IMG/VR virus record: IMGVR_UViG_3300046697_000019 | Coordinates: 1 to 38,707 of that record | DNA from: a virus | Length of the DNA: 38,707 bases | Direction: 5' to 3' (one strand) | Shown: piece after piece, positions 11,602-29,521 of the stretch | How the letters are laid out: every line of letters begins with the position of its first letter | How positions within the stretch are numbered: position 1 is the stretch's first letter | Position numbers and translations under genes: made by a program | Notes under the pieces: generated by a model | Database searches by the model: none | What the model saw: the letters and a program-made list of their open reading frames with translations, nothing else | What the model was told of the DNA's origin: nothing

Positions 11602-13032
11602 CTAATAATGATAAAAGCTAGTATCACGAAGGAAATATGGTGTTAGCATTATTCGTGAACCAACATCAGCGCCTGTGTCTGAAAATCCTAATATTGTATT
11701 CATCGCCCAAATTCCACCCTCTGTTCCATTTGTATATGATCCGCCAACAATCAAAAATCGTTCTGCTGCTGTGGATCCAGTAGTGTATGTGCCACACCAG
11801 TATGTGTTGGCAGAACCTGTAACAGTAGCTGGCCAAAATGGCATCCATTCTGTTTCGTGATAGCCTGCATCATATGACATCGCGTTGACATAGCCTGTGG
11901 ATGCAAGCGTGCCCAAACCCGTCACCTGGAACTGCGTGTTCACGCCTGTATTTAGTAGTTGCGCTGTGGTATAGTCAGCCAGCGGCGTTGCTGCACCACC
12001 GGCACCAATTCCCTGTTGGTTATAGCGCACCCACAAATTCCTGTTTGTGTCAATTTCGTGCGCATCCAGCATTGTCCACGTATTGCCCCAAAGGTTTTCA
12101 ACACCACGATACGACATTGCATATATAGGGCCAGCAGCAACCTGCACCTGTCCAGACGCGTTGCCCAAATCAATATTGTGATAGCTGCCATTTGTCATCG
12201 TGTATGATGAAGTCCAACCAGTGTATTGTCTGTTTGCGCCAGTGTTTATTCCAGCAGACAGCCCACCACGCGCTGTTGATCCTGATGGTGTTTGGCAGTT
12301 CAGGTTCGCATATTCAATAAGATAAAGCCACTGCAGCGCACTCCACGCCTGAAGATCAAGCAATTCGTATCGCTGCACTGTGCCGCCACCCTGTGCGGCA
12401 CCCATCAGGTTTGCACCATTCCTGCAGTCAGCACGTGCCGTTGATATTGTTGGTGCGTTGTTTGCGCCAGAATACAGAACACCGTTTGACAGCCATCCTT
12501 CATATGCGCCAATCATAATGTAGTCAATCGGATTCTGAGCGCGCAGAAACGCAGGGTGCAGCCGGTAACCCTGCATTGGATATGGAGAAATCCAGTGGTA
12601 TCTGTAGTTTCCTGACACATAGAATTTATACCAGAACTTCGGCACGTAAACAAAAATTTTTCCCATTCCGCTGCTGTCTGTGTATGTTAAATTTCCATAA
12701 TCGTCAATTTCGCCATAAAATGAATCAATGTCGCTGGTAATATTAACCATCGCGCGCTTCATTCCGCACCAGGGCATCAGCCCATCGCCACCTGTTGGCG
12801 CGTTTGCATCTTCATCAAACGTGTCAAATGATGAAACATAAGGACTTGATGCAGTATTTACGTGAAATATTGCATCCACGGCTGCGCCTTCAAGATAGTT
12901 TCCAAATTTGTCATTCATCACGCGTGTGATGGAAGCGCCAGGATCAGGATTTGTTATGTCAATTTTAACGCCAACTGCAACTGGTGGTCGTTTGCTGTCA
13001 TATGAAACATATCGTGTTGATTGATTCGCCAT
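11602..13032 (-). CDS. C-type-lectin-fold tail protein, receptor-binding candidate, 476 aa
   Basis: The ATG at 13032 overlaps the upstream stop (TAATG). The C-terminal 330 residues have hallmarks of the formylglycine-enzyme/C-type-lectin fold used by phage receptor-binding proteins: HPAFLRA..., YIMIGAYEGW, the helix LLDLQAWSALQWLYLIEYANL, and the core motif SYRGVENLWGN. The end, GSRIMLTPYFLRD, is also typical. It is the most distal tail gene before the lysis-like genes, the usual place for host recognition. The 24405-25640 protein shares the same core. No reverse transcriptase is present, so it is not part of a complete diversity-generating retroelement. Confidence 0.72.
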   Translation of the reverse strand: MANQSTRYVSYDSKRPPVAVGVKIDITNPDPGASITRVMNDKFGNYLEGAAVDAIFHVNTASSPYVSSFDTFDEDANAPTGGDGLMPWCGMKRAMVNITSDIDSFYGEIDDYGNLTYTDSSGMGKIFVYVPKFWYKFYVSGNYRYHWISPYPMQGYRLHPAFLRAQNPIDYIMIGAYEGWLSNGVLYSGANNAPTISTARADCRNGANLMGAAQGGGTVQRYELLDLQAWSALQWLYLIEYANLNCQTPSGSTARGGLSAGINTGANRQYTGWTSSYTMTNGSYHNIDLGNASGQVQVAAGPIYAMSYRGVENLWGNTWTMLDAHEIDTNRNLWVRYNQQGIGAGGAATPLADYTTAQLLNTGVNTQFQVTGLGTLASTGYVNAMSYDAGYHETEWMPFWPATVTGSANTYWCGTYTTGSTAAERFLIVGGSYTNGTEGGIWAMNTILGFSDTGADVGSRIMLTPYFLRDTSFYHY

Positions 13033-14402
13033 TATTTCCAATTCCTGCCAATTTCACCAAGTTGCCACCTGTTTTCTGTTGCAAATGGCATTGGTCGTGT
13101 CCAGTTAAATTTGAACGCATCGCACACAATTGGCGTGATCACTTCACCATCAGGCGTGAAGTCCAACTTCACTTCACGAATTAAATCTGTCAACGTCATA
13201 TTATTAAGCTGCACACTAACTTTGCACCCCAATCTGAATTCACCACTTAGGTTTGCCAGCGTGCCAAATATTGCCATTTCTGACGGTTCCAGGTTAATCG
13301 TTGCAGTCGCATTATATTGTTTCAGTTTCAATTCTGCATTGCTTTTATCGCGCATCCACGCAACAATCTGTGCCTTTGTAGGATTTCCACCAGCAACTGC
13401 TTCTGTCTGCACGCTGCCTGTATCAAAGAATTCTTCCATCCTGCCAACAGATGCGATTTGATGATTCGCAGCACCACCATATAAGTCATAAATCGTGTCG
13501 TTTTGTGTTGTGTGATATAGTCTATATCCAAGTTCACTGCTGACTGCGCCACTTGATGGATCAATGTCAGGCCCACCACCAATGACCACTGTGGCATCCG
13601 GTTTCTTTTCTTGGTATGTGAAATCACGCACAGTGCCAAGATCAGTTCCAAACGTAACCCTATCAGTCATATCCGTGGCCATATACATAAAAAACCAATA
13701 TCTGTATGCGCCAGTTTGGGCCAGATATTGGACATCAAAGCCCAAATCTGCATCCAAATAATTATATGCAGCAGTCCCTGTTGACATCTGACTAGCCTTT
13801 TTGGCCATTTCATATGCGGTTTCCCATCGCGCCCAATATTCTATATTTTGGCCATATGATGGACTGTGGCCAATTCCAGAATTGAAATATGGTATTTTTC
13901 GCCACGCCGTTGGCTGTCCATCGCCAAAGTAATAATACAACATTCCTTCCACGAATTGTTCAACTGGTTGGCCATCATATCCACAGTATCTGGCATATCC
14001 GCTGTAATAGCCGTCCTGCGAAAAGTAATGCTGCCAATCTGGTTCCATCACGCGCGCCTGCAACAACCAAAGGTCTGACATCCCTGTTAATTCCAGCATG
14101 TCATCGCCACCTTTCCAGGTGCGTGTGGCTTCTGTGATAGGGCCAGCGATCAGTGGGTTTATCTCGCTGTTTCTATACGCAGCAATGGAAAACTTTGTTA
14201 TTGGATCTGTGGGTGCTGGTTTAAAAACGCTGTTGAATTCTGCATATGGCATCGTCAGTGACCAGGTGGACATATCAGCCCATTTTTGATCAACATGAAA
14301 TTCTGTCCATTTTTCGATATAATCAAAAAGCGTGCCGTCCTGCTGGTTGCGCCCCCAAATCTGAATGCTCATATCAGAATTTGCTGTTGGTTCTTGAATC
14401 AT
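13032..14402 (-). CDS. tail-tip protein, ReqiPepy6 Gp37-like, 456 aa
   Basis: It starts ATGA, overlapping the upstream stop. The N-terminal part (IQIWGRNQQDGTLFDYIEKW..., then SLTMPYAEF and AGPITEATRTW) looks like the Gp37-like family of siphovirus tail proteins that follow the distal tail protein. The C-terminal half has the strand-rich L..G..V.V domain of tail hub proteins. It probably forms part of the tail hub or baseplate between Dit and the receptor-binding protein. No peptidase motif is visible. Confidence 0.65.
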   Translation of the reverse strand: MIQEPTANSDMSIQIWGRNQQDGTLFDYIEKWTEFHVDQKWADMSTWSLTMPYAEFNSVFKPAPTDPITKFSIAAYRNSEINPLIAGPITEATRTWKGGDDMLELTGMSDLWLLQARVMEPDWQHYFSQDGYYSGYARYCGYDGQPVEQFVEGMLYYYFGDGQPTAWRKIPYFNSGIGHSPSYGQNIEYWARWETAYEMAKKASQMSTGTAAYNYLDADLGFDVQYLAQTGAYRYWFFMYMATDMTDRVTFGTDLGTVRDFTYQEKKPDATVVIGGGPDIDPSSGAVSSELGYRLYHTTQNDTIYDLYGGAANHQIASVGRMEEFFDTGSVQTEAVAGGNPTKAQIVAWMRDKSNAELKLKQYNATATINLEPSEMAIFGTLANLSGEFRLGCKVSVQLNNMTLTDLIREVKLDFTPDGEVITPIVCDAFKFNWTRPMPFATENRWQLGEIGRNWK

Positions 14403-15298: not shown

Positions 15299-18014
15299 AT
15301 TGCGCACCGTTCATTGCTTCTGCTCGTTTCAGCAGTTTCACAATTTCTTCTTCTGTTATTGGCTGCGTGATTAAGCCAGACAAATTGATGTGATAACTGT
15401 TGCCGCCACTACCAATTCCACGCGTGTCAATTGGCGTGCCGCCATTCTTCAAATCGTGTTCTGGAATGACATATTCACGTTCACCTGCTTCACCAACCAA
15501 CACTGGCGTGCCGCCAGGGCGTGGTTCGATGACTGCACCGTGTGCTAGATGTGGAAGCAGGCTTCCCCAATCTGGCATCGCTGGAATTAGGCCAGACCAA
15601 TTTGGCATTGCAGGGAATAATCCACCCCAATCTGGCATTGATGGCATTAATCCACCCCATGATGGCAATGCTGGTAATAATCCACCCCATGATGGCAATG
15701 CTGGTAATAATCCACCCCATGATGGCAACGCTGGTAATAATCCACCCCATGATGGTAGCGCAGGAAGTAAGCCACCCCATGATGGCAGTGCTGGTAGCAA
15801 TCCACCCCAAGATGGAAGTGCTGGCAGTAGTCCCCCCCATGATGGCAACGATGGTAATAATGAACCCCAAGATGGAAGTGAAGGAAGCAATGCACCCCAA
15901 TTTGGCATTGCTGGTAATAACGCACCCCAGTTTGGCATAGGTGGCAACAGTGCGGCCCAGTTGGGCATAGCTGGTAGTGGTAAATGTGTGAAGAATCCAG
16001 AAATTTGCCCCCCTATGCCGCTCAATGCGCCCAAAATTGTGCCACCCGCACCAGCGAGTTGACCGGCTATTCCACTTAATGCACCCATTATCACGCCGCC
16101 AGCACCAGCGAGTTGACCGGCTATTGAAGAAAAAGCGCCCATTATGACGCCGCCCGCACCACTCAATGCAGAAGCAATTCCACTGACCGCGCCACTTAAT
16201 GCGCTGCTTATTCCTGCGCCAATGCCGCCAAGTGAACCCCCAATCCCACCAAGTGCGCCAGAAATCAGGCCACCAAGTCCAGACAGCGCACCATTTATTG
16301 CATTCAACAGGCCAGTTCCAACAGCACCCCAATCAATACCCGCCAGTAATGCTGGAATTGCCAAAAATGCAACACCAAATGCCGTTAATAATGCCCTTCC
16401 AACAGAACCCCAATCAACGTTTGCCAGGAATGTGCCAATTCCCTTCAAAGCATTGCCGATTGCAGTTAAAACGGCAACGCCAACCGCGCCCCAATCAACG
16501 CTGGCTAGACTATGCGCCATTGATGAACCTGACGAACTCATTCCCGAGACCAATGCACCGCCAATTTTTGCTGCAATGGAACCCCAATCAATCTTTTCCA
16601 ATACTGATAATAATGCGCCTCCAATTTTGTCGATAAGCGGCAACACTTTGGTAATTGCGCCGCCTATTAGTGCTTCAAGTTTTCCTGCAATGTCTGGTCC
16701 TGCAATGCTTTTGCTTATTGCGCCACCAACGTCACCCTTTCCACCAGGTGAAAAGATGCTGTCAAATACTGAACCTATCGCATTAACAATTCCCTGAAAC
16801 GCGCCTGCCCAATCAATGCCCATCAGAAAACTAAAGATTTTATCCTGGATGCCCTGCAGGGAATCAAGCAACCCCGCAAACGCGCCACCATAATCAAAGC
16901 TTTTCAATCCGTTTAAAATATCGCCACCTATTGCAGAAGCGCCGGATGCAACGGTTTTTAACCCATTCAATATTGATTGCCCGATGGAACCCCAATCAAC
17001 TGCTTTTAGAAAATTAACGGCTTCATTGCCAGCATTTTGTATGCCCGTAAGCATTTCTGTGCCAATTTTGCTAAAGATTGACCCCCAATCCATAGCTCGC
17101 AGTGAATTGTATGCTCCCCCAAATCCGGTTTTGATTTCATTGATTGCGCCAGTAATGTTGCCACTCGTTAGATCACTAAATGCTGTGGATAAATGGCCAC
17201 CTAACGTTTGAACAATTGGAACAATCTGGCCTATCGTATCTCTAAACGTGCCAGACGCCAGCGATGCCACAATCAACCCACCACCAATCAATGCAATCCC
17301 TGCCACTATAGGAATTGCTGCGGGTCCTACACCTGCCAAAACCTGACCTAACATTGTTGACTGCACAGCGGCCACGCCTGCTATTGATCCAACACTTTTA
17401 AGCGGCGCAACCAGTTCTTTTGAAATCCCCGAACCACTGCCTGTCAGTGCGGTGATGGCAGTGCGCAATGACGTGGTTTCCTTTTTAGCATCCATCATCC
17501 CCATTTTAAGGTCTTTCGTGCCAGCTGTGGCATCGAGCGCATCAGTTGCAAGTCCCCCGCCTGTTCCCAGGCTGGTTTTTGATACTCCTTTAAGGTCGTT
17601 AAGTTCAGCTTTTGATGCTGCCAGCTCTGTGCGAAGCTCGGTCATGCCTGATGAATCAACGCTCACGTTAATTGTTGATCCGTCAAGTGAACTTATTTCA
17701 CTCTGGACATTATCAAGTGCAGAAGTATCAACATCTGTGGTAACATCAATCGTTGACGTTCCTAGATCAGCAATAGTGGATTGTGCAGCATCAAGGGCGC
17801 TGGTGTCAACGTCTGTTGTTACGTTAAGCGTTGAATCCTGCAGGGAATTGATAGTGCTTTCTGCGTCTGTTATTGGCGCGGTGTCAACATTGGTGGAAAT
17901 ATCAACGGTTTTGTCCGCCATTGAATCAATAGCCGATTGCAAATTGGTTATTGCACTATCATCAACATCATTGATGCTTAATTGAACCGCCAAATCAGCT
18001 ATGACATCGGACAT
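15291..18014 (-). CDS. tail tape measure protein, 907 aa
   Basis: The longest gene, between the chaperones and Dit. Residues about 30-125 contain four degenerate repeats of about 28 residues (V..DVDTSAL...QS.I..L..ST). A hydrophobic stretch lies at about 220-256. Residues 280-580 repeat VDWGS(I/V)G...L.. units. Next come glycine/alanine-rich repeats (GAGGVIMGALSGIAGQLA), then 14 tandem 10-residue units with consensus LLPALPSWGG (about 686-825). Tape measures often carry short repeats with fixed aromatic residues. At about 1.5 angstrom per residue the tail would be near 135 nm. Its start follows the chaperone stop by 3 bases. Confidence 0.88.
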   Translation of the reverse strand: MSDVIADLAVQLSINDVDDSAITNLQSAIDSMADKTVDISTNVDTAPITDAESTINSLQDSTLNVTTDVDTSALDAAQSTIADLGTSTIDVTTDVDTSALDNVQSEISSLDGSTINVSVDSSGMTELRTELAASKAELNDLKGVSKTSLGTGGGLATDALDATAGTKDLKMGMMDAKKETTSLRTAITALTGSGSGISKELVAPLKSVGSIAGVAAVQSTMLGQVLAGVGPAAIPIVAGIALIGGGLIVASLASGTFRDTIGQIVPIVQTLGGHLSTAFSDLTSGNITGAINEIKTGFGGAYNSLRAMDWGSIFSKIGTEMLTGIQNAGNEAVNFLKAVDWGSIGQSILNGLKTVASGASAIGGDILNGLKSFDYGGAFAGLLDSLQGIQDKIFSFLMGIDWAGAFQGIVNAIGSVFDSIFSPGGKGDVGGAISKSIAGPDIAGKLEALIGGAITKVLPLIDKIGGALLSVLEKIDWGSIAAKIGGALVSGMSSSGSSMAHSLASVDWGAVGVAVLTAIGNALKGIGTFLANVDWGSVGRALLTAFGVAFLAIPALLAGIDWGAVGTGLLNAINGALSGLGGLISGALGGIGGSLGGIGAGISSALSGAVSGIASALSGAGGVIMGAFSSIAGQLAGAGGVIMGALSGIAGQLAGAGGTILGALSGIGGQISGFFTHLPLPAMPNWAALLPPMPNWGALLPAMPNWGALLPSLPSWGSLLPSLPSWGGLLPALPSWGGLLPALPSWGGLLPALPSWGGLLPALPSWGGLLPALPSWGGLLPALPSWGGLMPSMPDWGGLFPAMPNWSGLIPAMPDWGSLLPHLAHGAVIEPRPGGTPVLVGEAGEREYVIPEHDLKNGGTPIDTRGIGSGGNSYHINLSGLITQPITEEEIVKLLKRAEAMNGAQYG
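15541..15960. repeat. 14 tandem 30-bp units in the tape measure gene
   Basis: Fourteen consecutive 30-bp units, best conserved at about 15631-15780, encode the 10-residue proline/tryptophan units of the tape measure. Each unit keeps the frame, so copy number can change tail length without breaking the gene. Outer units are more diverged than central ones, which points to recent expansion in the middle. Confidence 0.9.
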
Positions 18015-18668: not shown

Positions 18669-19301
18669 TTATAATCTGCTTACTATGTGGCCATCTGCGT
18701 CAGAATCGCCAGACCACGATATTGTTTGTTCCAAAACGCCATCCACAGCATCCTTCAATTCTTCACTGTCCATCAAAGCCCACGCCAGCAAACTGTAGTT
18801 TGCAGACATATAAAAGTTGATTGCAATCGTTGCATCTGCCAGCATTTCTGTGTTCCAATATGGTGCGATGGATAGGGTTGCAACTTCTGTTGGATCATAG
18901 AACGTTCCAATTGTGCCGTTCACATCATTCAATGAACGCGTCACCGTCTGATAGTTCTGGCCAAATGGCGTGATGTCTGTGATCTTTGGTTTAATGCTCA
19001 GACTGAAATCTTTCGCATAAAGAAGCTGTCCCATTGGCAGATATTCGCCGCTAACAGTTATCGGTTCGTTTAGTGTCTGGTCTGCTGCAAACGTCAGCGT
19101 TCCCGTTAAACGGTTGACTGTGAAATTTCCAGTGCCGTTGGTTGTAACTGCATATGTCGGACTTAAAACTTGTTTTGTCGCTGCAGTGATCTGATATACT
19201 TTGTGGATGCTCAGATTTGTGCAGGCTTCATTTGTCAGCACTGCTGCCGTTCCTGAAGCATAAACAATTGCGTGGTGGCCTGCAGTAATTGTTGCTGCCA
19301 T
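18669..19301 (-). CDS. tail tube or tail structural protein, 210 aa
   Basis: The ATG follows GGTGGC. A beta-rich structural protein with an N-terminal adhesin-like part (AVTTNGTGNFTVNRLTGTLTF) and a later portion (LSIKPKITDITPFGQNYQTVTRSLNDVNGTIGTFYD) that looks like the tail-tube fold, where a loop describing a deviation or modification is followed by strands. It is the third in a row of tail-tube-like genes. It may be the main tube subunit with an added domain, or a minor tube protein. Confidence 0.55.
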   Translation of the reverse strand: MAATITAGHHAIVYASGTAAVLTNEACTNLSIHKVYQITAATKQVLSPTYAVTTNGTGNFTVNRLTGTLTFAADQTLNEPITVSGEYLPMGQLLYAKDFSLSIKPKITDITPFGQNYQTVTRSLNDVNGTIGTFYDPTEVATLSIAPYWNTEMLADATIAINFYMSANYSLLAWALMDSEELKDAVDGVLEQTISWSGDSDADGHIVSRL

Positions 19302-19317
19302 ATTGTGCCACCACTGT

Positions 19318-19731
19318 TTAAGTTATTACAACTGCAGAACTGGAAGCGTTGCTTACTGAATAAGTAACTTCAACGTAGCCATCTGGCGCGTCTTTTATCT
19401 CTATACTGTCAACCACTGCTTTGAATTCCACGGCAGGCGTTGTTGCTGTCAACAGAACTTTCACATACAAATCCGTATCTGAAACCATGTTGGCCCAAAA
19501 ATATGCCTGGCCAGTTGCTGCTTTTTCCAAAAATCCTGCAATCGTTGCAGTCACGTCTTTTATTCCCGGTGCGCGCGCAACATACACAGGCGCGCTTGCA
19601 GCAAATTCTGTTACGTCAACGCTTTTGCCGTCAAACTTCAAATCAACGTTGTTGATGTGTTCAACAACCTGTGTTGGCGTTGCTGCACTATTTGCCTTAA
19701 CTGTTGGCAGATTCCCTTTAGTTATTGCCAT
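19318..19731 (-). CDS. tail tube protein, 137 aa
   Basis: A compact beta-rich protein: NVDLKFDGKSVDVTEF, ATIAGFLEKAATGQAYFWANMV, VKVLLTATTPAVEFKAVVDSIEIKDAPDGYVEVTYSVS. The pattern D....V...G......G...F.A.V.S.EI...PDG.V.V.YS is shared with the next protein and typical of siphovirus tail-tube proteins. It is probably the main subunit polymerised around the tape measure. Confidence 0.65.
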   Translation of the reverse strand: MAITKGNLPTVKANSAATPTQVVEHINNVDLKFDGKSVDVTEFAASAPVYVARAPGIKDVTATIAGFLEKAATGQAYFWANMVSDTDLYVKVLLTATTPAVEFKAVVDSIEIKDAPDGYVEVTYSVSNASSSAVVIT

Positions 19732-19744
19732 TTCTTAATTCACC

Positions 19745-20167
19745 TTATCCATTCGTTATAGGGCCAGTGGACTGCGCTGAAAATGAAACGTCAATCGTTC
19801 CATCTGGCGTTGTTTTTATGTCAATACCATCAACCATCACCTGTGATTTGATGAATTTTGTTCCATCATACAGGTATTTAAACCACAGTTCAGCGCCATT
19901 CACAGCGTTGTCAACTATGATTGTCTGGCCTGTAGTATCGCCATAATCGTCAAAAAATCCATCTGCAGTGTATTCAACGTGCTGCATTCCAGTGATTCTG
20001 GCCACATATTCCTGCGCAGAACACGTGAACACGGTGCTGTCAATATTCTTCATCATAAACTTTGCACCCAATGCGTTCATTTGTGCAACTGCGTTGTATG
20101 CACCAGCACCACCTGCAACATTTGAAGCCTGCAGGCAGCCCAAAATTCCTTTCGTTATTCCTGCCAT
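19745..20167 (-). CDS. tail tube protein paralogue, 140 aa
   Basis: Resembles the 137-aa protein next to it: the same start pattern (M.(G)ITKG), a VEY.ADGFFDDYGDTTGQ segment in the deviation-loop position, and the closing strand pair VMVDGIDIKTTPDGTIDVSFSAQS. A tandem duplication is the simplest reading. It might form part of the tube or a specialised ring. Confidence 0.6.
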   Translation of the reverse strand: MAGITKGILGCLQASNVAGGAGAYNAVAQMNALGAKFMMKNIDSTVFTCSAQEYVARITGMQHVEYTADGFFDDYGDTTGQTIIVDNAVNGAELWFKYLYDGTKFIKSQVMVDGIDIKTTPDGTIDVSFSAQSTGPITNG

Positions 20168-20954: not shown

Positions 20955-21353
20955 TTATCGTGCAGGTTCCACCTGTTCAACGCAAAACAATATCATAAAC
21001 AAGTTTTTGTTTTCAACATTGTTGATGTTCAAAATGTTCATCATTCGTGTGCCGTGTTTAATCCAATGTTTCAACGTCACATCTGAATTATACCAGGTCG
21101 TGATTTTCCAATATGCATATGCTTCAGTTGCACTTGATGTGTATGTTTCACCACCAATTGCAGCAGGTTTTGATGATGGTGTTTCAATCGAAGCCCACGC
21201 ATCAGCAATTGTTGTGTCAATTGGTGCTGCAATGCCACCATATCCATCACTGGTTTCGCTTCGTGAAATGAAACTTATCCGTTCATCAAACGCCTGAAAT
21301 GGTGGCACAGAAGGTTGCATTGGCTTCTGCGCTGGTGGCTGCGCAATCGTCAT
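20955..21353 (-). CDS. head closure / head-tail adaptor protein, 132 aa
   Basis: After a proline-rich start, the sequence RISFISRSETSDGYGGIAAP, then IADAWASIETPSS and a final beta barrel (ITTWYNSDVTLKHWIKHGTRMMNIL), is the phage head-tail adaptor pattern (SPP1 gp16-like). It would plug the connector after packaging. It overlaps the upstream connector gene by 4 bases. Confidence 0.75.
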   Translation of the reverse strand: MTIAQPPAQKPMQPSVPPFQAFDERISFISRSETSDGYGGIAAPIDTTIADAWASIETPSSKPAAIGGETYTSSATEAYAYWKITTWYNSDVTLKHWIKHGTRMMNILNINNVENKNLFMILFCVEQVEPAR

Positions 21354-21907
21354 AAGTAAATCCTATATGGCTGCAGTTTCGTTATCACATCAGGCGGCAG
21401 CACGCCGGTTGTCCCCTGCGTGAAGAAATACGCAGCAGCTTCCATGATGGCATCCTGGATGTCCTGTGGAACTTTATCTGCAGTATCACCATATCCACAG
21501 ACGTATTCAACAACCATTCCGTTGCGCATTCGCGTGTAGTTCCAAGTATATCCAGTTTTTAAAACTGCCCTGCCTGGCTCGCTGAATGTGTCAGCAAAAT
21601 AACTGGTGTCATTTTGTGCAATTGAAGTTCCAACGTCATTATATGTCGTGATGTTTGCAATCGATTGCAATGGTGGACGTGGCAGCACAATATAGTCATA
21701 ATTTTTGAACACGTCTTTGTAGTCTAACATCAACTGCCACGTCTGTGTGATGAATGCGCGCCTGGTGTAGTTTTCTGCCATTATGCGTGCAGATGTGGCA
21801 AACTGCTGCAATCTGTCGTTATAATCGTCACTATCCAGGCGCAGGAACGTCTGCACGTCTGTGCCATCAACCAGTTCAACTGCTGGTGGCGTAACAATCT
21901 GAATCAT
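21350..21907 (-). CDS. head-tail connector (gp6/gp15-like), 185 aa
   Basis: Helical connector protein. The N-terminal part (QTFLRLDSDDYNDRLQQFATSARIMAENYTRR) matches the phage connector family in which a short helix bundle starts with VK.hLr.d...D..L..hi.aA......t.R. A beta insertion PRPPLQSIANITTYN and C-terminal helix (IQDAIMEAAAYFFTQ) follow. It sits between head surface genes and the adaptor gene. Confidence 0.75.
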   Translation of the reverse strand: MIQIVTPPAVELVDGTDVQTFLRLDSDDYNDRLQQFATSARIMAENYTRRAFITQTWQLMLDYKDVFKNYDYIVLPRPPLQSIANITTYNDVGTSIAQNDTSYFADTFSEPGRAVLKTGYTWNYTRMRNGMVVEYVCGYGDTADKVPQDIQDAIMEAAAYFFTQGTTGVLPPDVITKLQPYRIYL

Positions 21908-21908
21908 G

Positions 21909-22295
21909 TTATGCTTCCCCCCATGTTCCAGTTGGCAACAGCTTTATTGATCCTCTCATGTTTTCTGGAACTTCCTGTGTGCCGTCAACAAAATAAACCC
22001 TGGTTTCGTGCTTATATTGCTTCACCTTTGTTGCTGATCCAATTCCTGGAACCACTGCATCATCTGGCGCTGTGTCGAGTGCAAGCAGTGGGATAAGAAC
22101 TTCTCCGAGAGATGCATCAATCATGACAATTTCGCCTGCAACCAATGATTTCTTTTTGACTATCGTTCTTCCGCTCAGGATTGCCCACACGATGTTGGTT
22201 GCTAATGTAAGATCAATCACGTTTCCATCTATGTCAACAAATGAGATGTCGTAAAGCCTGTCGCTGCCAGAAGTCAGACTTAAATCCGTGGTCAT
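21909..22295 (-). CDS. BppU-N-like structural protein, 128 aa
   Basis: A beta-rich protein with the pattern LTSGSDRLYDISFVDIDGNVIDLTLATNIVW..., G(E/T)IVMIDASLGEVLIPL, Y.HETRVYFVDGT and a closing strand. This matches the small immunoglobulin-like domain at the N-terminus of baseplate/upper-tail proteins (BppU type), often used to hang fibres. Here it lies between fibre-like head genes and the connector, so it may attach the adjacent surface proteins to the virion. Confidence 0.45.
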   Translation of the reverse strand: MTTDLSLTSGSDRLYDISFVDIDGNVIDLTLATNIVWAILSGRTIVKKKSLVAGEIVMIDASLGEVLIPLLALDTAPDDAVVPGIGSATKVKQYKHETRVYFVDGTQEVPENMRGSIKLLPTGTWGEA

Positions 22296-22807
22296 GTCAA
22301 TTTCATATCCTTTTCAATAACCGCCGTTAACTTTTGTCTATATACTGTCAGCATTGGTGGCGTTCCATAGATCCTGCTGCAACTATACGGCAGCCAATCC
22401 ATCCAGGTTCCCGCGAGCGCAGTCATACGATTTTGAACAGTCAACGCTCTGGCGCAACCGTCATACAGTGGTGCATCGCCAGGGAGCGCAGTCATGACTA
22501 CCGGAATCCAAAACAGAAATGCGCAGCCGTTTATATCACGGTTTCCTGCAACCGCAGTTAACCTTACTGTTACTGTTGGATTTAAATAAACCGGAATTCC
22601 ACAACTGATTTGCATAGTTCCAGAAACCGTTGCACCCATCGTTTTTTCCAACAACATGGGTGCTGGCGTGCAACCACCTAACATTGGATACAATGCAGCA
22701 TTTCCTGCGGTCATCGTGTGCGTTATGGTTATGGTGGCAAGTGCCGTGTTGCAGCCTACTTCATATGTTCCGTTTGCCGCTATGGCGTGAAATGTCCAAT
22801 CCGTCAT
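22292..22807 (-). CDS. virion surface protein, unknown, 171 aa
   Basis: A beta-rich protein with many small residues and six cysteines, placed between two surface-protein genes and overlapping the next gene by 4 bases. No enzyme motif. The pattern of short strands (ATITITHTMT, ATVSGTMQISC, TVTVRLTAV) suggests a jelly-roll or immunoglobulin-like decoration or fibre protein. Family not recognised. Confidence 0.5.
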   Translation of the reverse strand: MTDWTFHAIAANGTYEVGCNTALATITITHTMTAGNAALYPMLGGCTPAPMLLEKTMGATVSGTMQISCGIPVYLNPTVTVRLTAVAGNRDINGCAFLFWIPVVMTALPGDAPLYDGCARALTVQNRMTALAGTWMDWLPYSCSRIYGTPPMLTVYRQKLTAVIEKDMKLT

Positions 22808-22809
22808 TT

Positions 22810-23568
22810 TTATGACATATATCCTTTAAACAGTCCAAGTTGGTCAAAGTAAATTATGCACTTGTCTGCACTAGCAGTGTTGCATTGCAGAATCCAGGGC
22901 GTTGATGAATACGTGTGTGCAAGATTTGTGGTCATAGTTAACGTTGTGGTCCCTGCGCCTGATGCAATAACGTTGGTTTCACTGGCGTTTGCATCCGCAA
23001 TATAGACCGATTGCCCATTGACAAATCCAGCGCCAGATGTCAGTCCAACGGTTTTTTGTCCAGACGTGTTCAACGGACCAGCACCTGTAAGCACTGTGTT
23101 GATCGCGCCGCCGGACAAATCAAGATAGCCGACTAATGGCCAGGTTGTGTTTGCGCCTGCAGTCTTTTTATAAATAATCGCGCCAACCATCGCGGAATAC
23201 GTCATGTTGGTAAGCATGATCCCGTTCGTGGTGCTATATGCTGTAGGCGCTTGAATACTGGCGTGACTTGCAGTAATGACATTATAATAAAACGGCGATG
23301 CCGTGGTTGAATCGGTGTAAGGTGCGAGTGTCACCAGTTGCATTCCGTTTGCCGCATAAGTTCCGGTTGCGCCTATATCAAAATTAAGCACATCCGACCA
23401 GTATTTTTTTGTCTTATCCTGCACATATGGCGCGCCACCGTAAACTCCAACCAGCGCCATCATGATTGTGTCGTTGGTCCAATCAAATGCCGTATCTGAT
23501 CCGACGGCACCGGCAAACAAGTTTCCTGCATAGTAATACAGATGGCCTGTTAAGTTTGTAAGTGTCAT
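22810..23568 (-). CDS. virion structural protein, 252 aa
   Basis: Starts with LTGHLYYYAGNLFAGAVGSDTAFDWTNDTIMMALVGV, a pattern I associate with phage structural proteins that begin by stating the tiny increase of a measured quantity across a particle. Two beta-rich regions follow, ending with NTASADKCIIYFDQLG. It lies between the SGNH hydrolase and the 171-aa protein in the block between capsid and connector genes. The role is inferred only from position: a head-attached or fibre protein. Confidence 0.5.
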   Translation of the reverse strand: MTLTNLTGHLYYYAGNLFAGAVGSDTAFDWTNDTIMMALVGVYGGAPYVQDKTKKYWSDVLNFDIGATGTYAANGMQLVTLAPYTDSTTASPFYYNVITASHASIQAPTAYSTTNGIMLTNMTYSAMVGAIIYKKTAGANTTWPLVGYLDLSGGAINTVLTGAGPLNTSGQKTVGLTSGAGFVNGQSVYIADANASETNVIASGAGTTTLTMTTNLAHTYSSTPWILQCNTASADKCIIYFDQLGLFKGYMS

Positions 23569-23589
23569 GTTAGGTTTTCCTTCTAGTTT

Positions 23590-24396
23590 TTAAACATTTA
23601 ATGCGGTATATCCAACCGGAATGCTGAACGATTGTTTGATTTCGCAAATTGCCGTTATGTGTTCGATTACAAAATCGGTTTCAAAGAAATCCAGATTAAT
23701 AGAATTGCCCATTGCTGAATACCCTGCAACATTTGGATGCGCTATACCGTCAGATGATAATGCCGGATTCACGCGCCCTGGATTGTTTGGATCGTCTAGC
23801 ACATCATAAAAGTCAATCAGATTGAAACCATTGGCTTCTGTATAGTCTGCCACCCACGCATTGATGTTGTTAACAGCATCAATATACATCTGCACGCATC
23901 CATCATAACCCCAATCTTCAACAAATGGCGTAACTGTGCAACACACTGGAATTATATCATTTGCAACTGCCGCGTCACACACAGTTTCAACGTTTCCCGT
24001 CACGAAAGCAACTGGATCACCAATTGCTGGCGATTGCCTATAAAAATGATTAATGTCGTTTACGCCACCCATAAAAACCACGTAGTCTGGTTGATAATAC
24101 ATTTGTCCAGATGAAAGTGTAGGTAGTGTGCCGTTAAGATATGCCGCAAATTCACTTAGAACATCACGCGGGACGCCGTGGCTAGGTGGGCTTCCTATTG
24201 AACCGCTGGTGTTACCACTTACGCCAATGTTTAAAACGATCCATCCTGGCAACCGCGTGTGGAGAATATATGGCCACGGAGCAGCCGGTTGTTCAATTAA
24301 TGGAGCCCACGGCAGAAAGGTAAATGGTTCATTGTATGGATAACCCGCAGTGATTGAATCTCCAATGCAGAGTATTGTCGGTGCTGCGTGTTTCAT
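23590..24396 (-). CDS. SGNH/GDSL hydrolase, 268 aa
   Basis: The start at 24396 fits the family; an upstream frame would overlap the lectin gene. Block I GDSITAG with catalytic S14 is at residues 12-18, block II NIGVSGN near 57, block III GGVNDI (N113), and block V DGIAHPN supplies D216 and H220. All four family blocks and the catalytic triad are present. Such enzymes remove acetyl or acyl groups from sugars. Located among surface proteins, it probably trims a host envelope or exopolysaccharide. No signal peptide, as expected for a virion protein. Confidence 0.85.
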   Translation of the reverse strand: MKHAAPTILCIGDSITAGYPYNEPFTFLPWAPLIEQPAAPWPYILHTRLPGWIVLNIGVSGNTSGSIGSPPSHGVPRDVLSEFAAYLNGTLPTLSSGQMYYQPDYVVFMGGVNDINHFYRQSPAIGDPVAFVTGNVETVCDAAVANDIIPVCCTVTPFVEDWGYDGCVQMYIDAVNNINAWVADYTEANGFNLIDFYDVLDDPNNPGRVNPALSSDGIAHPNVAGYSAMGNSINLDFFETDFVIEHITAICEIKQSFSIPVGYTALNV

Positions 24397-24404
24397 GCTT
24401 ATGC

Positions 24405-25640
24405 TTATTGCGGGATGTATTGCAGCCGTGACCCAATTGCTGCGCCTAAGTTTGACCCGCCCCCCATAGCAGTATTTTGAGTGACATACTCTTGCGTAGC
24501 CATACCACCACCCCCAGAGTATCCAGAAGTGTAACACGATATCACATATGCGTTGCTTGACGGCCTGGCGATGCCGACGCTGCAAAGCCACGCTGTTGTG
24601 TAGGCCGCGCCGGTGATTGCCATTGGGAACATCGCCCACGCATATGCCCCCGTTGTATTAATTGCGGAAACGTTACCGCCACCCGTTATCGTAAGGGTCA
24701 CGCCTGTGCTGGTGTATGGCGGCGAAACAGATGACATAGACGAGCCGGACGGACATGGGACAAAGCCATGATCTGCTATCCAGGGGGTGTATGATCCATC
24801 AATAAATATACCGTCGAGGTATTCCGCAATGTTGCCCCATAGGTTTTCCCACCCGCGGTATGATACCGCATTCGTTGTAGTCCCAGAACTATATGTTGCA
24901 CCGTTGTCGAGTGTAGAATAAACGACGTTGCCTGACGCGTTATTTAAACTTGCAGTGTGACCCGTGTTCTGAGCGCTTTTCGCGGACCACAAATACGTAA
25001 GATTATTAATCCCCGTGCCGACTGCACCACCAACATACCATGTAGCACATTCGACTACTGCCATTAATCGGATAGCTTCTAATGCTTGTATTTGTATAAG
25101 GCCCCATCCGCTGCCCCGTGCAGCAGCATACCCGCGCAGCGTGTCCATGATTTGTGACCCGCTCGTCATGGTCGTCGGTTGGACGCCGACCTTTGATTCA
25201 TATTTGCCGGTTGCCGCGTTGTAATATCCCTCAAACGCGCCTACTAAAACATATGGCAATCTTCTACCATTTGAAATAAACGCAGGGTGTAAATCTGAGG
25301 CAACAATCGTGTGTGTTGTAGTTCCGTCTTGATTACTAATAACATCGCCTAGCGCGTTTGAAATCCAAAATGCTACCTTATTCGTCGTGCCTGCATCTAT
25401 ATAGTAATAAAACGATTTTAGGACACCCACAGTTTGTCCATTAGCTCCAGATGCATCATAACCACATCCGCCACAATGCGCAGTCGGTGTGCCATTGTCG
25501 AGTATATTCCAGCGTCCGCACGCTGCCCATGGCTGCACGCTGTTAAACGCCGCGCCGGCGGTCATGCCGACGTTCGCACCTAAACGGATTAATGTTGGCG
25601 ATGAGTTGTTAGAAGTCCACAATACGCCGTATGCTGTCAT
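24405..25640 (-). CDS. C-type-lectin-fold surface protein, 411 aa
   Basis: The C-terminal two thirds have the lectin-like fold seen in phage receptor-binding proteins and in the 11602-13032 protein: LHPAFISN..., YVLVGAFEGYYN, helix IQIQALEAIRLMAVVE, and VSYRGWENLWGNIAEYLDG. Near the N-terminus a pair of cysteines (CGGCG) is present. Codon and base use look more GC-rich than the neighbours, suggesting later acquisition. It lies between capsid and connector genes, so it may sit on the head rather than the tail tip. Confidence 0.68.
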   Translation of the reverse strand: MTAYGVLWTSNNSSPTLIRLGANVGMTAGAAFNSVQPWAACGRWNILDNGTPTAHCGGCGYDASGANGQTVGVLKSFYYYIDAGTTNKVAFWISNALGDVISNQDGTTTHTIVASDLHPAFISNGRRLPYVLVGAFEGYYNAATGKYESKVGVQPTTMTSGSQIMDTLRGYAAARGSGWGLIQIQALEAIRLMAVVECATWYVGGAVGTGINNLTYLWSAKSAQNTGHTASLNNASGNVVYSTLDNGATYSSGTTTNAVSYRGWENLWGNIAEYLDGIFIDGSYTPWIADHGFVPCPSGSSMSSVSPPYTSTGVTLTITGGGNVSAINTTGAYAWAMFPMAITGAAYTTAWLCSVGIARPSSNAYVISCYTSGYSGGGGMATQEYVTQNTAMGGGSNLGAAIGSRLQYIPQ

Positions 25641-25643
25641 TTC

Positions 25644-26000
25644 TCACCTTTGAAACACAAAATTAATTATTCTGTCTGCGCCCTGCGAAACTGGCGATCC
25701 AGACGTTCCACTGCGCACTTTGAACCATCGAAATGGCGACAAAAGTGGGCCAGACGTATCAAGTGAAAATGCTGCACCTGCAGCAACTGCAGCAGAAGGA
25801 TTCACAGCGGTTCCTGCTTCGTTTGTCAATTCGTCAAACGTTCCACCAGATGAACCGGCTACTTGAAAAGACAAACTTGCAGCAGTCCACGCAGCTGGCA
25901 TTATAACGCCAATGCGCGTTGCGCCGCCAAGAAAATCAACAACTGAACTTAATGATGTGCCATTTGTAATAGTAACCGGCACAATCCATTTATATGGCAT
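25644..26000 (-). CDS. capsid decoration-like protein, 118 aa
   Basis: A small beta protein with low-charge strands (RIGVIMPAAWTAASLSFQVA, then GTFDELTNEAGTAV, then SPFRWFKVRSG) that resembles the jelly-roll or discoidin-like C-terminal domain of phage structural proteins. No cysteine or enzyme motif. It follows the terminator hairpin at 26030-26061, so its level may be lower than that of the capsid genes. Confidence 0.5.
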   Translation of the reverse strand: MPYKWIVPVTITNGTSLSSVVDFLGGATRIGVIMPAAWTAASLSFQVAGSSGGTFDELTNEAGTAVNPSAAVAAGAAFSLDTSGPLLSPFRWFKVRSGTSGSPVSQGADRIINFVFQR

Positions 26001-26029
26001 TTTTTATTTCCCCTCAGTTAAGATATAGG

Positions 26030-26061
26030 AAAAAAATAAAAGAAGTGGGCAAATGCCCACT
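26030..26061 (-). terminator. intrinsic terminator after the capsid genes
   Basis: On the minus strand AGTGGGCA and TGCCCACT form a perfect 8-bp stem with a 2-nt centre (26044-26061), followed by TTCTTTTATTTTTTT. It lies between the abundant head genes and the surface-protein genes, so it probably reduces read-through, giving the usual excess of capsid over minor proteins. Confidence 0.75.
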
Positions 26062-26069
26062 GTGTTGTT

Positions 26070-26540
26070 CTATGCTACAACCGTCGTGTAGTAAGGTCCG
26101 TGACGTAGGTTTGACTGAATCAGTGTTACATCAAACGAAACCGTGACTGAACCAGTTGCAGCATTAAGCCTGAACCAACGCTTGTTTCCTAGATATTCAA
26201 AGATATACGTGTGGCCATTGTCTGCCGCAGCGGTCATCGTAAGAACGCCTGCGGAAATCTTTGTGTTGCTGTTGTCATCACGCACAGCCAGTGTGTTCGC
26301 GGTTGGCGTAACTGCCGCGCCAGCGTCAGTTGCTGATACATCAGTCTCATACAACGTGAAAACGTAGTTTGAAACAGACGCGCTTGTAGTTGCGTGAAGC
26401 ACAAGCATATTGGTTTCAAAACCCTGCGTGTCAACGTTCGTGGTAGTGAACGCTGAGTTGAATGCAGCGGCGTTTGCGCACGAAGTGGCTTCAAAAAGCA
26501 CTTTGAGCTGCAGCCGGTGCAGCAAATCTTTCATTGACAT
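26070..26540 (-). CDS. capsid-associated structural protein, 156 aa
   Basis: A beta-rich protein with an N-terminal helix (MKDLLHRLQLKVLFEATS) and strands such as NYVFTLYETD, HTYIFEYLG and SVTVSFDVTLI. It comes three genes after the major capsid protein and just before a strong terminator, a place often held by head decoration or tower proteins. It overlaps the upstream helical gene by 10 bases. Family not certain. Confidence 0.5.
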   Translation of the reverse strand: MSMKDLLHRLQLKVLFEATSCANAAAFNSAFTTTNVDTQGFETNMLVLHATTSASVSNYVFTLYETDVSATDAGAAVTPTANTLAVRDDNSNTKISAGVLTMTAAADNGHTYIFEYLGNKRWFRLNAATGSVTVSFDVTLIQSNLRHGPYYTTVVA

Positions 26541-26689
26541 TTTTCTTTATCCTCATTTTCCATTTCGTTAATGGCATTTTGCAGCGCCTGGATTGCACCA
26601 ACAGCGGCATTGGCATTAGCCAACGCCACCTGCCGGTTGTTTTCATAAACAGCAATCATTTCCTGCAATTTTTCTTTGGTCAATTCCAT
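26531..26689 (-). CDS. small coiled-coil protein, 52 aa
   Basis: The ATG at 26689 is chosen since it is 4 bases after the upstream stop; a longer frame would enter that gene. Nearly all helical: LTKEKLQEMIAVYENNRQVA, then AIQALQNAINEMENEDKEKC. Short proteins with this pattern are common beside head genes of uncultured siphoviruses. Role unknown, perhaps trimeric stalk or assembly helper. Confidence 0.55.
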   Translation of the reverse strand: MELTKEKLQEMIAVYENNRQVALANANAAVGAIQALQNAINEMENEDKEKCQ

Positions 26690-26693
26690 TTGA

Positions 26694-27203
26694 TTAACCG
26701 TCCGTCCACACCGGAATCCTGTATATCGAAGCGCCAATGTAGATTCTAAGCGCCAATTGGTTTGCACAGAAAGCAGGCGTGCTTGTTCCATATGCAGATC
26801 CTGCGGTTGTGTCGCACGATGATCCCGCGCCGGTTACTTTAAATGCAGGATTTGTTGCGCCGCCATCAAGCGTGATCAGTCCAGTTGCTGCAGTGATCAC
26901 ACATTTTGACGTGCCAATAGTAACATCACCAGTTAATTGTGATGTGGTGTCAACTGTCAGTGCGCCCTTCGTCTGAATGTTTCCACTAGCAGCTGTGATC
27001 AATGCGCCGGTTCCCGCATATCCAGTTCCAATCGTCACATTGCCAGTTAATTGACTTGTGGTCGTTACCGACAATGACGTTCCTGCAGTGATTGAACCAG
27101 ATGGGCTGAAGTTTCCTGTGTATGCTACAGAGCCAATGGCAGAAACCACTAAACGGTTTCCACCCTGGTCAATGTAAACACCAGTTGTTTTTGTCACAAT
27201 CAA
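26694..27203 (-). CDS. beta-repeat head fibre-like protein, 169 aa
   Basis: Contains repeated blocks such as SLSVTTTSQLTGNVTIGTG and LTVDTTSQLTGDVTIGTS, each about 30 residues, typical of trimeric beta-helix fibre shafts. The C-terminal end (NQLALRIYIGASIYRIPVW) resembles the cap found in tail- or head-fibre proteins. It lies directly after the major capsid gene, where head fibres are found in several phages. Confidence 0.6.
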   Translation of the reverse strand: MIVTKTTGVYIDQGGNRLVVSAIGSVAYTGNFSPSGSITAGTSLSVTTTSQLTGNVTIGTGYAGTGALITAASGNIQTKGALTVDTTSQLTGDVTIGTSKCVITAATGLITLDGGATNPAFKVTGAGSSCDTTAGSAYGTSTPAFCANQLALRIYIGASIYRIPVWTDG

Positions 27204-27211
27204 TCACCAGA

Positions 27212-28435
27212 TTATGTTTGACAGGTCAATACTGTATATGCAAGTTCATTCACTGCACCGCCACCAACGCCCAGGCGCTCTGTGAATAGTGAAACAGCGC
27301 CTTTGGTCGTGATTTCATCACGGATGGTGTAGATTCCAGGGTTGTCAACAATCGTATATGCTTCCGTGAAATCACCATATGCAATCGGATATGTGGATGA
27401 ACCAATGTTTGGCATTGACGGAGAATAGAGAATGGGTTTTCCAAACAACATATCGCGCGACGGTCCAGGAAGTTCTGACGACAATCCGTATTGCTGCTGA
27501 ACGTTATCTTCTATCATATAACGTCCCATTCCGTCCTGGAATTTTCGCAGATATGCCTTCGTGCTTCTGTTCATAATCCAACAGGCGTTTTGCTGATATA
27601 CTTCAGGCAGTGCTTCCTGCATAGTTATCAGCACATCAAAGTCATTGATTGCTGCAGACGTGCCGGTGTGCGTGTTGGTCACGGAAGTTCCAGATTCTGT
27701 GGCAGCGGTCATAATGCCTTCAGGCTGTCCAGAACCAGTTCCATTGATAAATGCCGCGCCTTCAAGTTGCGCCATATAACGCGAAACCCGCTGCGTCATC
27801 CATCCTTCCACATCGAAAGCACCAATGCGTGCCATCTTCTGCGTCATTATCGGCATCGCATACATTGGATGCGTTGGAATGCGCATTTCATTAAGGGTCA
27901 TGTTGGCAGTTGCGCTGCGTGATCCTCTTTCAGAAGTCCATCCAGCAGGCATCGTGCCAGCTTCGCCAAGCATCACCAGTTCATCACCAGCGCGCAGCGT
28001 TTCAACTGACGCAATTCCACGAATTGGCGACACAAGTATAATAGCTTCAATTATTCGCGCGCTAACTTGTGGCGTGAGCCAGTAACCACCAGAAATCAAA
28101 TCGTTGGAGGCAACCGTTTTGTAGAATTCTGGAATTTCGGATTTGGAATGTGTTGCAACGTATTCTTTGACATAATCAAGCTGGTTGAAATCCTTCTTAG
28201 TCCACAGATATTTTTCAAAATCCGAGTTCCATTTAATTTCAATGTCGTCGTCTTTGTCCTTTCCGACAACGCCAGGTGCTTTGTTAAGCTTGGTTTCGAT
28301 GGCATCAATTCTGTCATTGAAAGTCTTTTGGCCAGCTTTGAATTCATCAAAATCTGTTGACATCTTACTGTTGTAGTCTGTCATTCCAGTTTGAAGTTCA
28401 TTCAAAAGCTGTTCCACGCTTTTTGTTTCTGCCAT
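27212..28435 (-). CDS. major capsid protein, HK97 fold, 407 aa
   Basis: Residues 1-100 are helical and charged, the typical delta (scaffold-like) domain to be removed by the protease. The mature part starts around 105 and shows classic HK97 features: SGGYWLTPQVSARIIEAI, the spine helix and E-loop region, INGTGSGQPEGI, then CWIMNRSTKAYLRKFQD, and LFGKPILYSPSMP. It follows the prohead protease gene by 3 bases. It forms the icosahedral shell. Confidence 0.93.
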   Translation of the reverse strand: MAETKSVEQLLNELQTGMTDYNSKMSTDFDEFKAGQKTFNDRIDAIETKLNKAPGVVGKDKDDDIEIKWNSDFEKYLWTKKDFNQLDYVKEYVATHSKSEIPEFYKTVASNDLISGGYWLTPQVSARIIEAIILVSPIRGIASVETLRAGDELVMLGEAGTMPAGWTSERGSRSATANMTLNEMRIPTHPMYAMPIMTQKMARIGAFDVEGWMTQRVSRYMAQLEGAAFINGTGSGQPEGIMTAATESGTSVTNTHTGTSAAINDFDVLITMQEALPEVYQQNACWIMNRSTKAYLRKFQDGMGRYMIEDNVQQQYGLSSELPGPSRDMLFGKPILYSPSMPNIGSSTYPIAYGDFTEAYTIVDNPGIYTIRDEITTKGAVSLFTERLGVGGGAVNELAYTVLTCQT

Positions 28436-28438
28436 AAT

Positions 28439-29521
28439 TTATATCCTCAATAGTTTATTCAATTCAGTTAATTTCAGTCGTATCTGTTCATCATTGTCAG
28501 ATTTGCCAGGCGCTGCAGCAGGTGCTGCAGCAGCACCAGTTGTTGGTTTTTCGCCGGGCTCGTTGTAGTCTGTGCCTGTCACTTGTGTTAATACGCCTTC
28601 GATTAAATCACCAGCTTGATCAAGCAAATCGTTTGCTTTTGTCAAGTCTGCTTCATTTTTAGTTGAAAGCACCCTACCGGCTTTTGTTTCCATAGTATTA
28701 CCATCAGCCTTTCCACCACCGGCCTTTGCATCTTCACGCTCTTTGATTCTGTCTGTGACTGCGCTGATGTGCGCACATTTGAATTCAAATTGCATGCTGT
28801 CTGCCTTCCATTCCAGTGGCGATTTGTCAGCACAATCATTGCCGTTTGCTTTGTTGATTTTACACATCGCAGCTTCAACAGCACTGTGCAGCCAATTCAT
28901 ATCAGATTGTGAAAAGCCAGTTAGCAGGTTGCCCTGCGCAGCCCATTGGTGCAATCGCCTGTGATAACTTGTTAAGTCCTGCAGGTTTTCCTTATTGATG
29001 CCTGCCAGCAAATCAGTTTTGTCCTGCGCTGTGATTGTTTTGGTGCGCATCACGTCTTTCACATCAGTGTTGACAGCTTCAGTGTTGCTTGGAAACGTCA
29101 CGTTGGAAATTTCCATCAGGCCAACATCCTGCAGATGGTTCACGCCTTCATCATCTTTGAAAGCCTTTCCATTATGCATAGTATAGCCAATACTGTTGCC
29201 GTCAATGTCACCATTCACTGCAGCTTCATATGCATCCTTTCCCCAAGAAGTTTTCAGATTGTATCGTGCCTGATATTTCAGACCATAATCATCTTCCCAC
29301 AGTTTCACAATTCGCCCTATAGGGCGCTTATAATCGTGCTGCCATAGGAACTTTAATTTTTTAGGATCAGCCAGTGCTTTCACAAACGCGCCACGATCAA
29401 CAACTTCTTTCTGGCTGTCAACAACGCCATAAACTGAAGCATAACCTTCAACAAATCCTTTTTCATCTGGAACTTCAAGTGGCAAAGAATTGTCTTTATA
29501 TCTCATTTCTGAATCTGTCAT
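28439..29521 (-). CDS. prohead protease, HK97 (S78) family, 360 aa
   Basis: The N-terminal 160 residues hold the protease: GYASVYGVVDSQKEVVDRGAF, catalytic H62 in LWQHDY, S110 in GNSIGY, and a conserved acidic residue in the GLMEISNVTFPSN strand. The remaining 200 residues are an unusual helical and cysteine-containing extension (including WLHSAVEAAMCKINKAN and an alanine/proline-rich linker), longer than in a simple protease and possibly an internal scaffold. It precedes the capsid gene. Confidence 0.88.
   Translation of the reverse strand: MTDSEMRYKDNSLPLEVPDEKGFVEGYASVYGVVDSQKEVVDRGAFVKALADPKKLKFLWQHDYKRPIGRIVKLWEDDYGLKYQARYNLKTSWGKDAYEAAVNGDIDGNSIGYTMHNGKAFKDDEGVNHLQDVGLMEISNVTFPSNTEAVNTDVKDVMRTKTITAQDKTDLLAGINKENLQDLTSYHRRLHQWAAQGNLLTGFSQSDMNWLHSAVEAAMCKINKANGNDCADKSPLEWKADSMQFEFKCAHISAVTDRIKEREDAKAGGGKADGNTMETKAGRVLSTKNEADLTKANDLLDQAGDLIEGVLTQVTGTDYNEPGEKPTTGAAAAPAAAPGKSDNDEQIRLKLTELNKLLRI

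Follow-up and report, generated by a model that had tools for sequence, protein, structure and literature searches.

An exchangeable lectin–SGNH hydrolase cassette between capsid and connector genes of an uncultivated virus: a candidate glycan-processing device of the neck or tail

Does a gene block lying between the major capsid protein (MCP) and the head–tail connectors of a phage encode head decoration? This question is raised by positions 21909–25640 of IMGVR_UViG_3300046697_000019, a whole virus record of 38,707 bases that was analysed in full (the window) and whose 126-base repeat, present at both ends, suggests a complete genome. From the letters alone, an earlier annotation (the sequence-only reading) had proposed that the block specifies a capsid-mounted device that binds and deacylates glycans, separate from the tail tip. 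We found five intact genes there, all on the minus strand between MCP and the connector Ad1 (Table 1): a lectin-fold protein, an SGNH hydrolase, a phrog_644 protein, an orphan and a protein resembling BppU. The content of the block was therefore as described, including the two further proteins (22810–23568 and 22292–22807), with the difference that additional accessory genes (25644–27203), which had been passed over, separate MCP from the block; a second lectin of the family, at the tail tip (11602–13041), had likewise gone unmentioned. That the block genes are real is supported by the relative L011 (MCP 66% identical), in which lectin, SGNH, phrog_644-type and BppU-like proteins follow one another in unchanged order, with 32–41% identity.

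The block is an exchangeable gene cassette, with sharp homology edges and occurrences at other genome positions. On one side, identity to the relative L005 is 97.6% over 25638–28474 and breaks off exactly at the start codon of the lectin, beyond which, in L005, a 103-amino-acid protein and a ConA-like fibre replace the lectin cassette. On the other, DNA homology to L009 resumes at 21892 (81% identity). Together, these two breakpoints define an exchangeable unit that matches 21909–25640 almost to the base, and the cassette was found in relatives, in agreement with the suggestion that synteny might reveal a travelling module. L009 and L010 (MCP 76%) as well as L012 (MCP 65%) carry a phrog_644 protein, a giant LamG-like protein, a label resting on similarity to proteins with PF13385 matches, and a BppU-like protein; the giant protein of L012 also has a weak PHP match.

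Within this unit, the second protein after the lectin is swapped. It is an SGNH hydrolase in the window and L011, a BNR sialidase-like protein in L031 (PF13088, E 1.5e-11), a GH43-like protein in L107 (E 8e-5, short of the curated threshold), a right-handed beta-helix in L035, and an uncharacterised domain of ∼300 residues in L019, L024, L030, L032, L059 and L070. The uncharacterised, GH43-like and beta-helix types have a C-terminal plug of ∼105 residues in common, mostly 50–75% identical, and the N-terminal domains joined to it are unrelated to each other. A second, shorter plug tail (…VEEITAT…GW) is common to the L011 SGNH and the L031 BNR protein, a match that was the best among 1723 C-termini and was reached by only 1 of 5000 shuffles. 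The window's SGNH tail shows a clear relationship to the L011 tail. A search for solved structures of the ∼300-residue domain and of the plug found none; a TIM barrel, which the sequence of the domain had suggested at first, is not claimed for it.

The enzyme of the window itself is assigned to the SGNH/GDSL family by its profile match and by the residues Ser14 (24355–24357), Gly58, Asn113 and His220 (23737–23739), which represent blocks I, II, III and V. Its start codon is most likely the ATG at 24396, which fits the gene layout; a reading-frame start at 24639 was rejected, as it would create a 235-nt overlap with the lectin gene. The best match in PHROGs is a lipase of the category 'moron, auxiliary metabolic gene', and SGNH occupies the cassette slot in two lineages only. 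Both observations would suit an esterase set free in soluble form at lysis, or a modifier of host glycans that blocks superinfection, in which case part of the block would act off the virion or inside the cell. We regard this as improbable, given that the C-terminal tail is conserved, that the gene is tightly packed among structural genes, and that other plug-bearing enzymes replace SGNH at the same place.

To which part of the particle would such a device be attached? In L049 a homologous cassette sits between Ad1 and Ne1, and in L027 between Ne1 and the tail terminator; that of L031 precedes the portal, those of L102/L163 and L164 stand between portal and protease, and that of L035 comes immediately behind the tape measure. 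Since the same cassette occurs at these other positions, the step from gene position to capsid mounting fails; we therefore rejected position as proof of where the device sits. The dock, defined as the protein encoded after the plug enzyme, likewise points to neck or tail where it is fused to a recognisable partner. In L030 this partner is BppU-like; in L163 and L164 it belongs to the tail-tube family (own-family profile, E ∼1e-23 and 5e-21; in L164 also phrog_1407 major tail protein, E 1.3e-4); and in L035 it is a protein whose relative in virus vir515 is encoded immediately behind the tape measure. Because of that relative, we call the 837-residue L035 protein a post-tape-measure tail protein only; it was also considered as a hub, which we discarded (a weak YqbQ match at E 0.04, no PDB match). 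Furthermore, stand-alone plug-family proteins are encoded between Ne1 and the tail-tube genes in several loci, one of them matching a phrog_16194 tail protein (E 8e-14).

The predicted fold of the last cassette protein, 21909–22295, adds a third line. A Pfam search with this protein found nothing, and its structural model matched the baseplate collar chain of DT57C, which is of LtfC type (Z 10.0), the T5 tail tip (Z 9.9), BppU of TP901-1 (Z 9.6) and of Douge (Z 8.9), and the neck proteins of Bas63 (Z 8.5) and Sf14 (Z 8.3). The model thus has the Ig-like (immunoglobulin-like) ring-domain fold of the BppU/LtfC type, moderately above the Ig background, consistent with the BppU-like domain recognised before. 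Its BppU-like homologues are the last cassette gene in every relative that has one, and the protein type is common to the L031 phage and the window phage (40% identity). LtfC and the BppU of Douge each form a ring that holds appendages at the tail tip (PMC10713586; PMC13033339), and the whiskers of Sf14, encoded among head genes, sit on the neck adaptor (PMC11821841). Position, anchors and fold all point away from the capsid, which looks less likely as a location than a collar at the neck or tail. The block adjoins Ad1, making a neck collar attractive, with the tail tip as an equally compatible site.

Taking these lines together, we somewhat favour, at a little better than even confidence, a modular device for adhesion and glycan processing, mounted on a neck or tail collar and represented in the window by one of its alleles. 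The BppU/LtfC-like ring or whisker protein would anchor the assembly, the lectin would bind a host surface glycan, and SGNH, fastened through its plug tail, would remove acyl groups from the glycan so held. Deacylation might then let the particle keep its grip, travel along the surface, or gain access to the receptor read by the separate tail-tip lectin. Recombination at the edges would replace the whole unit, the catalytic domain being exchanged and the plug retained. A function in binding and editing glycans, as proposed before, is plausible from the families present, and we infer that the proteins are carried in virions. Several observations weigh against this interpretation. Most lineages hold the cassette in the slot between MCP and Ad1, that is, beside capsid genes. 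The dock fusions of tail type occur in relatives with the other plug type and not in the window, and the window's own SGNH tail, compared alone with that of L031, showed no significant similarity. The Ig-domain background for the 21909–22295 model is near Z 8, so the BppU-like match stands just 1–2 Z higher. Finally, block V of SGNH reads DGIAH, one residue more than the canonical DxxH, and in the L011 homologue the Asp is absent (GTGYPH); the statement that all catalytic blocks are present was nearly, but not fully, right, in that Ser, Gly, Asn and His are in place and the Asp is displaced.

The location on the capsid is a serious rival, if to our minds a rather unlikely one. Here, lectin and esterase would be borne by the capsid lattice in the form of turrets or head fibres, 25644–26000 or a neighbour serving as their base, and would provide a first reversible contact together with glycan trimming. 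Precedents show that capsid-borne glycan devices exist: carbohydrate-binding and glycan-deacetylase-like activities have been proposed for a single device, the turret (gp30/gp31) of HFTV1 (PMC12494034), and the head spikes of RcGTA bind capsular polysaccharide, as does its tail fibre (PMC10218006). The common slot between capsid accessory genes and Ad1 speaks for this arrangement, as does the fact that 25644–26000 abuts the lectin in the window, L019, L024, L029 and L107. The model of that protein (pLDDT, the predicted local distance difference test, 90) matched, among others, capsid proteins of phages 7-7-1, GP4 and KHP40, all at background level (Z 7.3 or less); we drew no conclusion from these matches and did not take the fold as proof of head decoration. 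Set against the turret are the five other kinds of cassette position, the one after the tape measure included, and the neck- or tail-type fold and fusions of the anchors. The lectins add a further point. In a quick tree of 92 of them, the window's tail-tip lectin clustered with tail-tip lectins of other phages (support 99), and the block lectins fell into a 20-member group (support 81) with lectins from neck, pre-portal and post-tape-measure positions and one tail-tip set, which nests within the block-type lectins. This grouping indicates that the lectin type moves between places. The claim that the device is separate from the tail tip thus stands insofar as the tail tip has its own lectin (11602–13041), but the capsid mounting that went with it is not supported. 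We hold it doubtful that a long-tailed phage carries here a capsid-borne, exchangeable, glycan-binding and deacylating turret apart from a tail-tip lectin of the same family. If it does, one virion would read and edit host glycans at two places and swap its head device as a cassette.

The family of the lectin raises the possibility of targeted hypervariation. A profile of the lectin family, built from five members, matched PDB 5vf4 (E 2e-10), which is TaqVP of Thermus aquaticus, a variable protein of a diversity-generating retroelement (DGR) with a C-type lectin fold (PMC6328139). By homology to this solved member, the block lectin is predicted to have the same fold (FGE/DGR subtype), in line with the earlier call of a C-type lectin. 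Many viral DGR targets have been annotated as tail proteins in a published catalogue (PMC8144416), and in relatives a reverse transcriptase lies directly downstream of 34 lectin genes. In the window, no reverse transcriptase was matched anywhere in the complete genome, and no template repeat was seen: the only direct repeats of 40 nt or more are those of the tape measure, the terminal ones and the 10.9-kb repeats. An active DGR in the window was therefore rejected, and the lectin is best described as a DGR-family member without a DGR. It is very unlikely, in our judgement, that DGR-type mutagenesis acts on the lectin from elsewhere. Homology to TaqVP, the 34 relatives and the differences from the close relative L004 would fit such a process: all 11 changes in the lectin are nonsynonymous, 10 of the 11 sites have A or are of the both-changed type, and A is present in one allele at 9 of the 11. 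Besides the missing reverse transcriptase and template repeat, this account is opposed by the spread of the changes over codons 250–394 rather than a C-terminal region of ∼40 codons, and by the same nonsynonymous excess in the gene at 26694–27203. Two loci present the pair formed by a 25644-family protein and a lectin in DGR versions and in a head-gene context, each with the order 25644-family protein, lectin, reverse transcriptase (L029, 9585–12498, just after the portal; L061, 6956–10217, downstream of TerL). At the tail tip, after the Dit and Gp37-like genes, L020, L023, L034 and L040 encode two tandem lectins of the family.

Comparison with L004 extends beyond the lectin. Five genes (26694–27203, 26070–26540, 25644–26000, lectin and SGNH) together show 24 nonsynonymous and 1 synonymous differences, the corresponding figures for the remaining genes of the comparison being 93.5 and 149.5 (Fisher 9.5e-9); the five were picked after the counts were seen, and much of the synonymous signal elsewhere stems from recombined tail genes. 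Against a neutral expectation, the excess reaches just p = 0.017. It suggests diversifying selection on surfaces that are probably exposed and says nothing on where in the particle they lie. The repeat protein at 26694–27203 contributes 9 nonsynonymous differences and 1 synonymous one. In MCP, nonsynonymous differences from L004 and L005 are mostly in codons 22–59, near the N-terminus.

The remaining late genes, also on the minus strand, follow a regular order: TerL, portal, a Mu-F-like gene, protease, MCP, small accessory genes and the block, followed by Ad1, Hc1, Ne1, tail terminator, tail-tube-like proteins, tape measure, Dit (14399–15307), Gp37-like gene and the second lectin. The tape measure gene was assigned from size and position; it contains, at 15505–15984, a 30-base tandem repeat in eleven overlapping registers. 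Three consecutive tail-tube-family paralogues, all matched by one profile, are encoded at 18669–20167, a set also present in relatives. Near TerL, 37252–38091 encodes a peptidase-like protein (phrog_16701, E 4e-7) with a same-family relative in L031. The relative L007 is ∼98.6–99% identical to the window from TerL through portal, with MCP at just 76%, and has a recombination break near the protease/MCP boundary. Within the cassette, 22810–23568 was assigned to phrog_644 through relatives; its match to PDB 9d93, 'tail wing arm' (E 0.0012), is weak and suggestive only. As for the host, an MCP profile search of genome contigs gave no prophage; the plug search matched one contig of an Anaerolineae metagenome-assembled genome (L168), and a search with the 837-residue L035 protein matched a Methanosarcinales virus.

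Table 1. Cassette genes, their neighbours and the tail-tip lectin in the window (aa, amino acids)
Feature	Positions	Strand	Match or remark
C-type-lectin-fold protein (predicted), 411 aa, DGR variable protein family	24405..25640	-	phrog_5302 'tail protein', E 5e-29
SGNH/GDSL hydrolase, 268 aa, C-terminal plug tail at ~residues 232-268	23590..24396	-	PF13472, E 6.5e-21
phrog_644-family cassette protein, 252 aa	22810..23568	-	homologues in L011, L009, L012
Orphan, 171 aa	22292..22807	-	homologues confined to near-identical relatives
BppU/LtfC-like collar protein, 128 aa, last cassette gene, probable anchor	21909..22295	-	AlphaFold model, pLDDT 82
Ad1 head-tail adaptor, downstream context, 3' edge of the exchange unit	21350..21907	-	phrog_442, E 4e-23
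Beta-sandwich protein abutting the lectin, 118 aa	25644..26000	-	kept with or without lectin cassette
Accessory protein, 156 aa	26070..26540	-	phrog_5707, E 3.5e-4; retained in relatives whatever the cassette content
Repeat protein adjoining MCP, 169 aa	26694..27203	-	weak bactofilin match; nonsynonymous excess
Major capsid protein (HK97-type), upstream context	27212..28435	-	PF05065, E 4.5e-55
Second lectin, same family, tail tip, after Dit and Gp37-like genes	11602..13041	-	phrog_5302, E 4e-52

That a gene lies between capsid and connector is not enough by itself to show head decoration. What the locus offers instead is a plug-and-socket logic of phage adhesion, in which the catalytic domain can change and the docking end stays: the unit exchanged next to the neck genes pairs a lectin with one of several unrelated domains, most of which look glycan-active. 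Searching for the plug is a concrete route to depolymerase-type enzymes of uncultivated viruses, and the unnamed families phrog_644 and phrog_1084 gain a context. The kind of device is already known; the cassette design, with plug-conserving swaps beside the adaptor gene, is a new variation on it. To our knowledge, no enzyme swap has been described for the head spikes of RcGTA.

Swapping of a glycan-active domain with retention of the attachment end is also seen in phage tailspikes and depolymerases whose catalytic domains are exchangeable, but in the cassette the retained end is C-terminal, comes in two plug types and lies adjacent to Ad1. The predicted fold of 21909–22295 resembles LtfC of T5/DT57C and BppU of TP901-1 and Douge (Z 10.0, 9.6 and 8.9), which also serve binding modules; here it forms a stand-alone protein of 110–140 residues, within an exchangeable cassette that includes an enzyme, and its gene adjoins that of the neck adaptor. 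The neck whiskers of Sf14 and Bas63 share an Ig-like fold match (Z 8.3–8.5, barely above the Ig background) and are encoded among head genes and attached to the adaptor (PMC11821841), whereas no lectin or enzyme has been described there. The DGR variable proteins TaqVP and Mtd are alike through homology of the lectin family (5vf4, E 2e-10) and differ in that this genome lacks both reverse transcriptase and template repeat. RcGTA combines head-borne polysaccharide binding with a tail fibre that binds as well (PMC10218006). The turret of HFTV1, like the module considered here, is a proposed binding and deacetylase-like device separate from the binding protein at the tail end (PMC12494034), but it unites galactose-binding and polysaccharide-deacetylase-like domains in one fused protein, whereas in the window a predicted lectin and a predicted SGNH hydrolase are encoded by separate genes.

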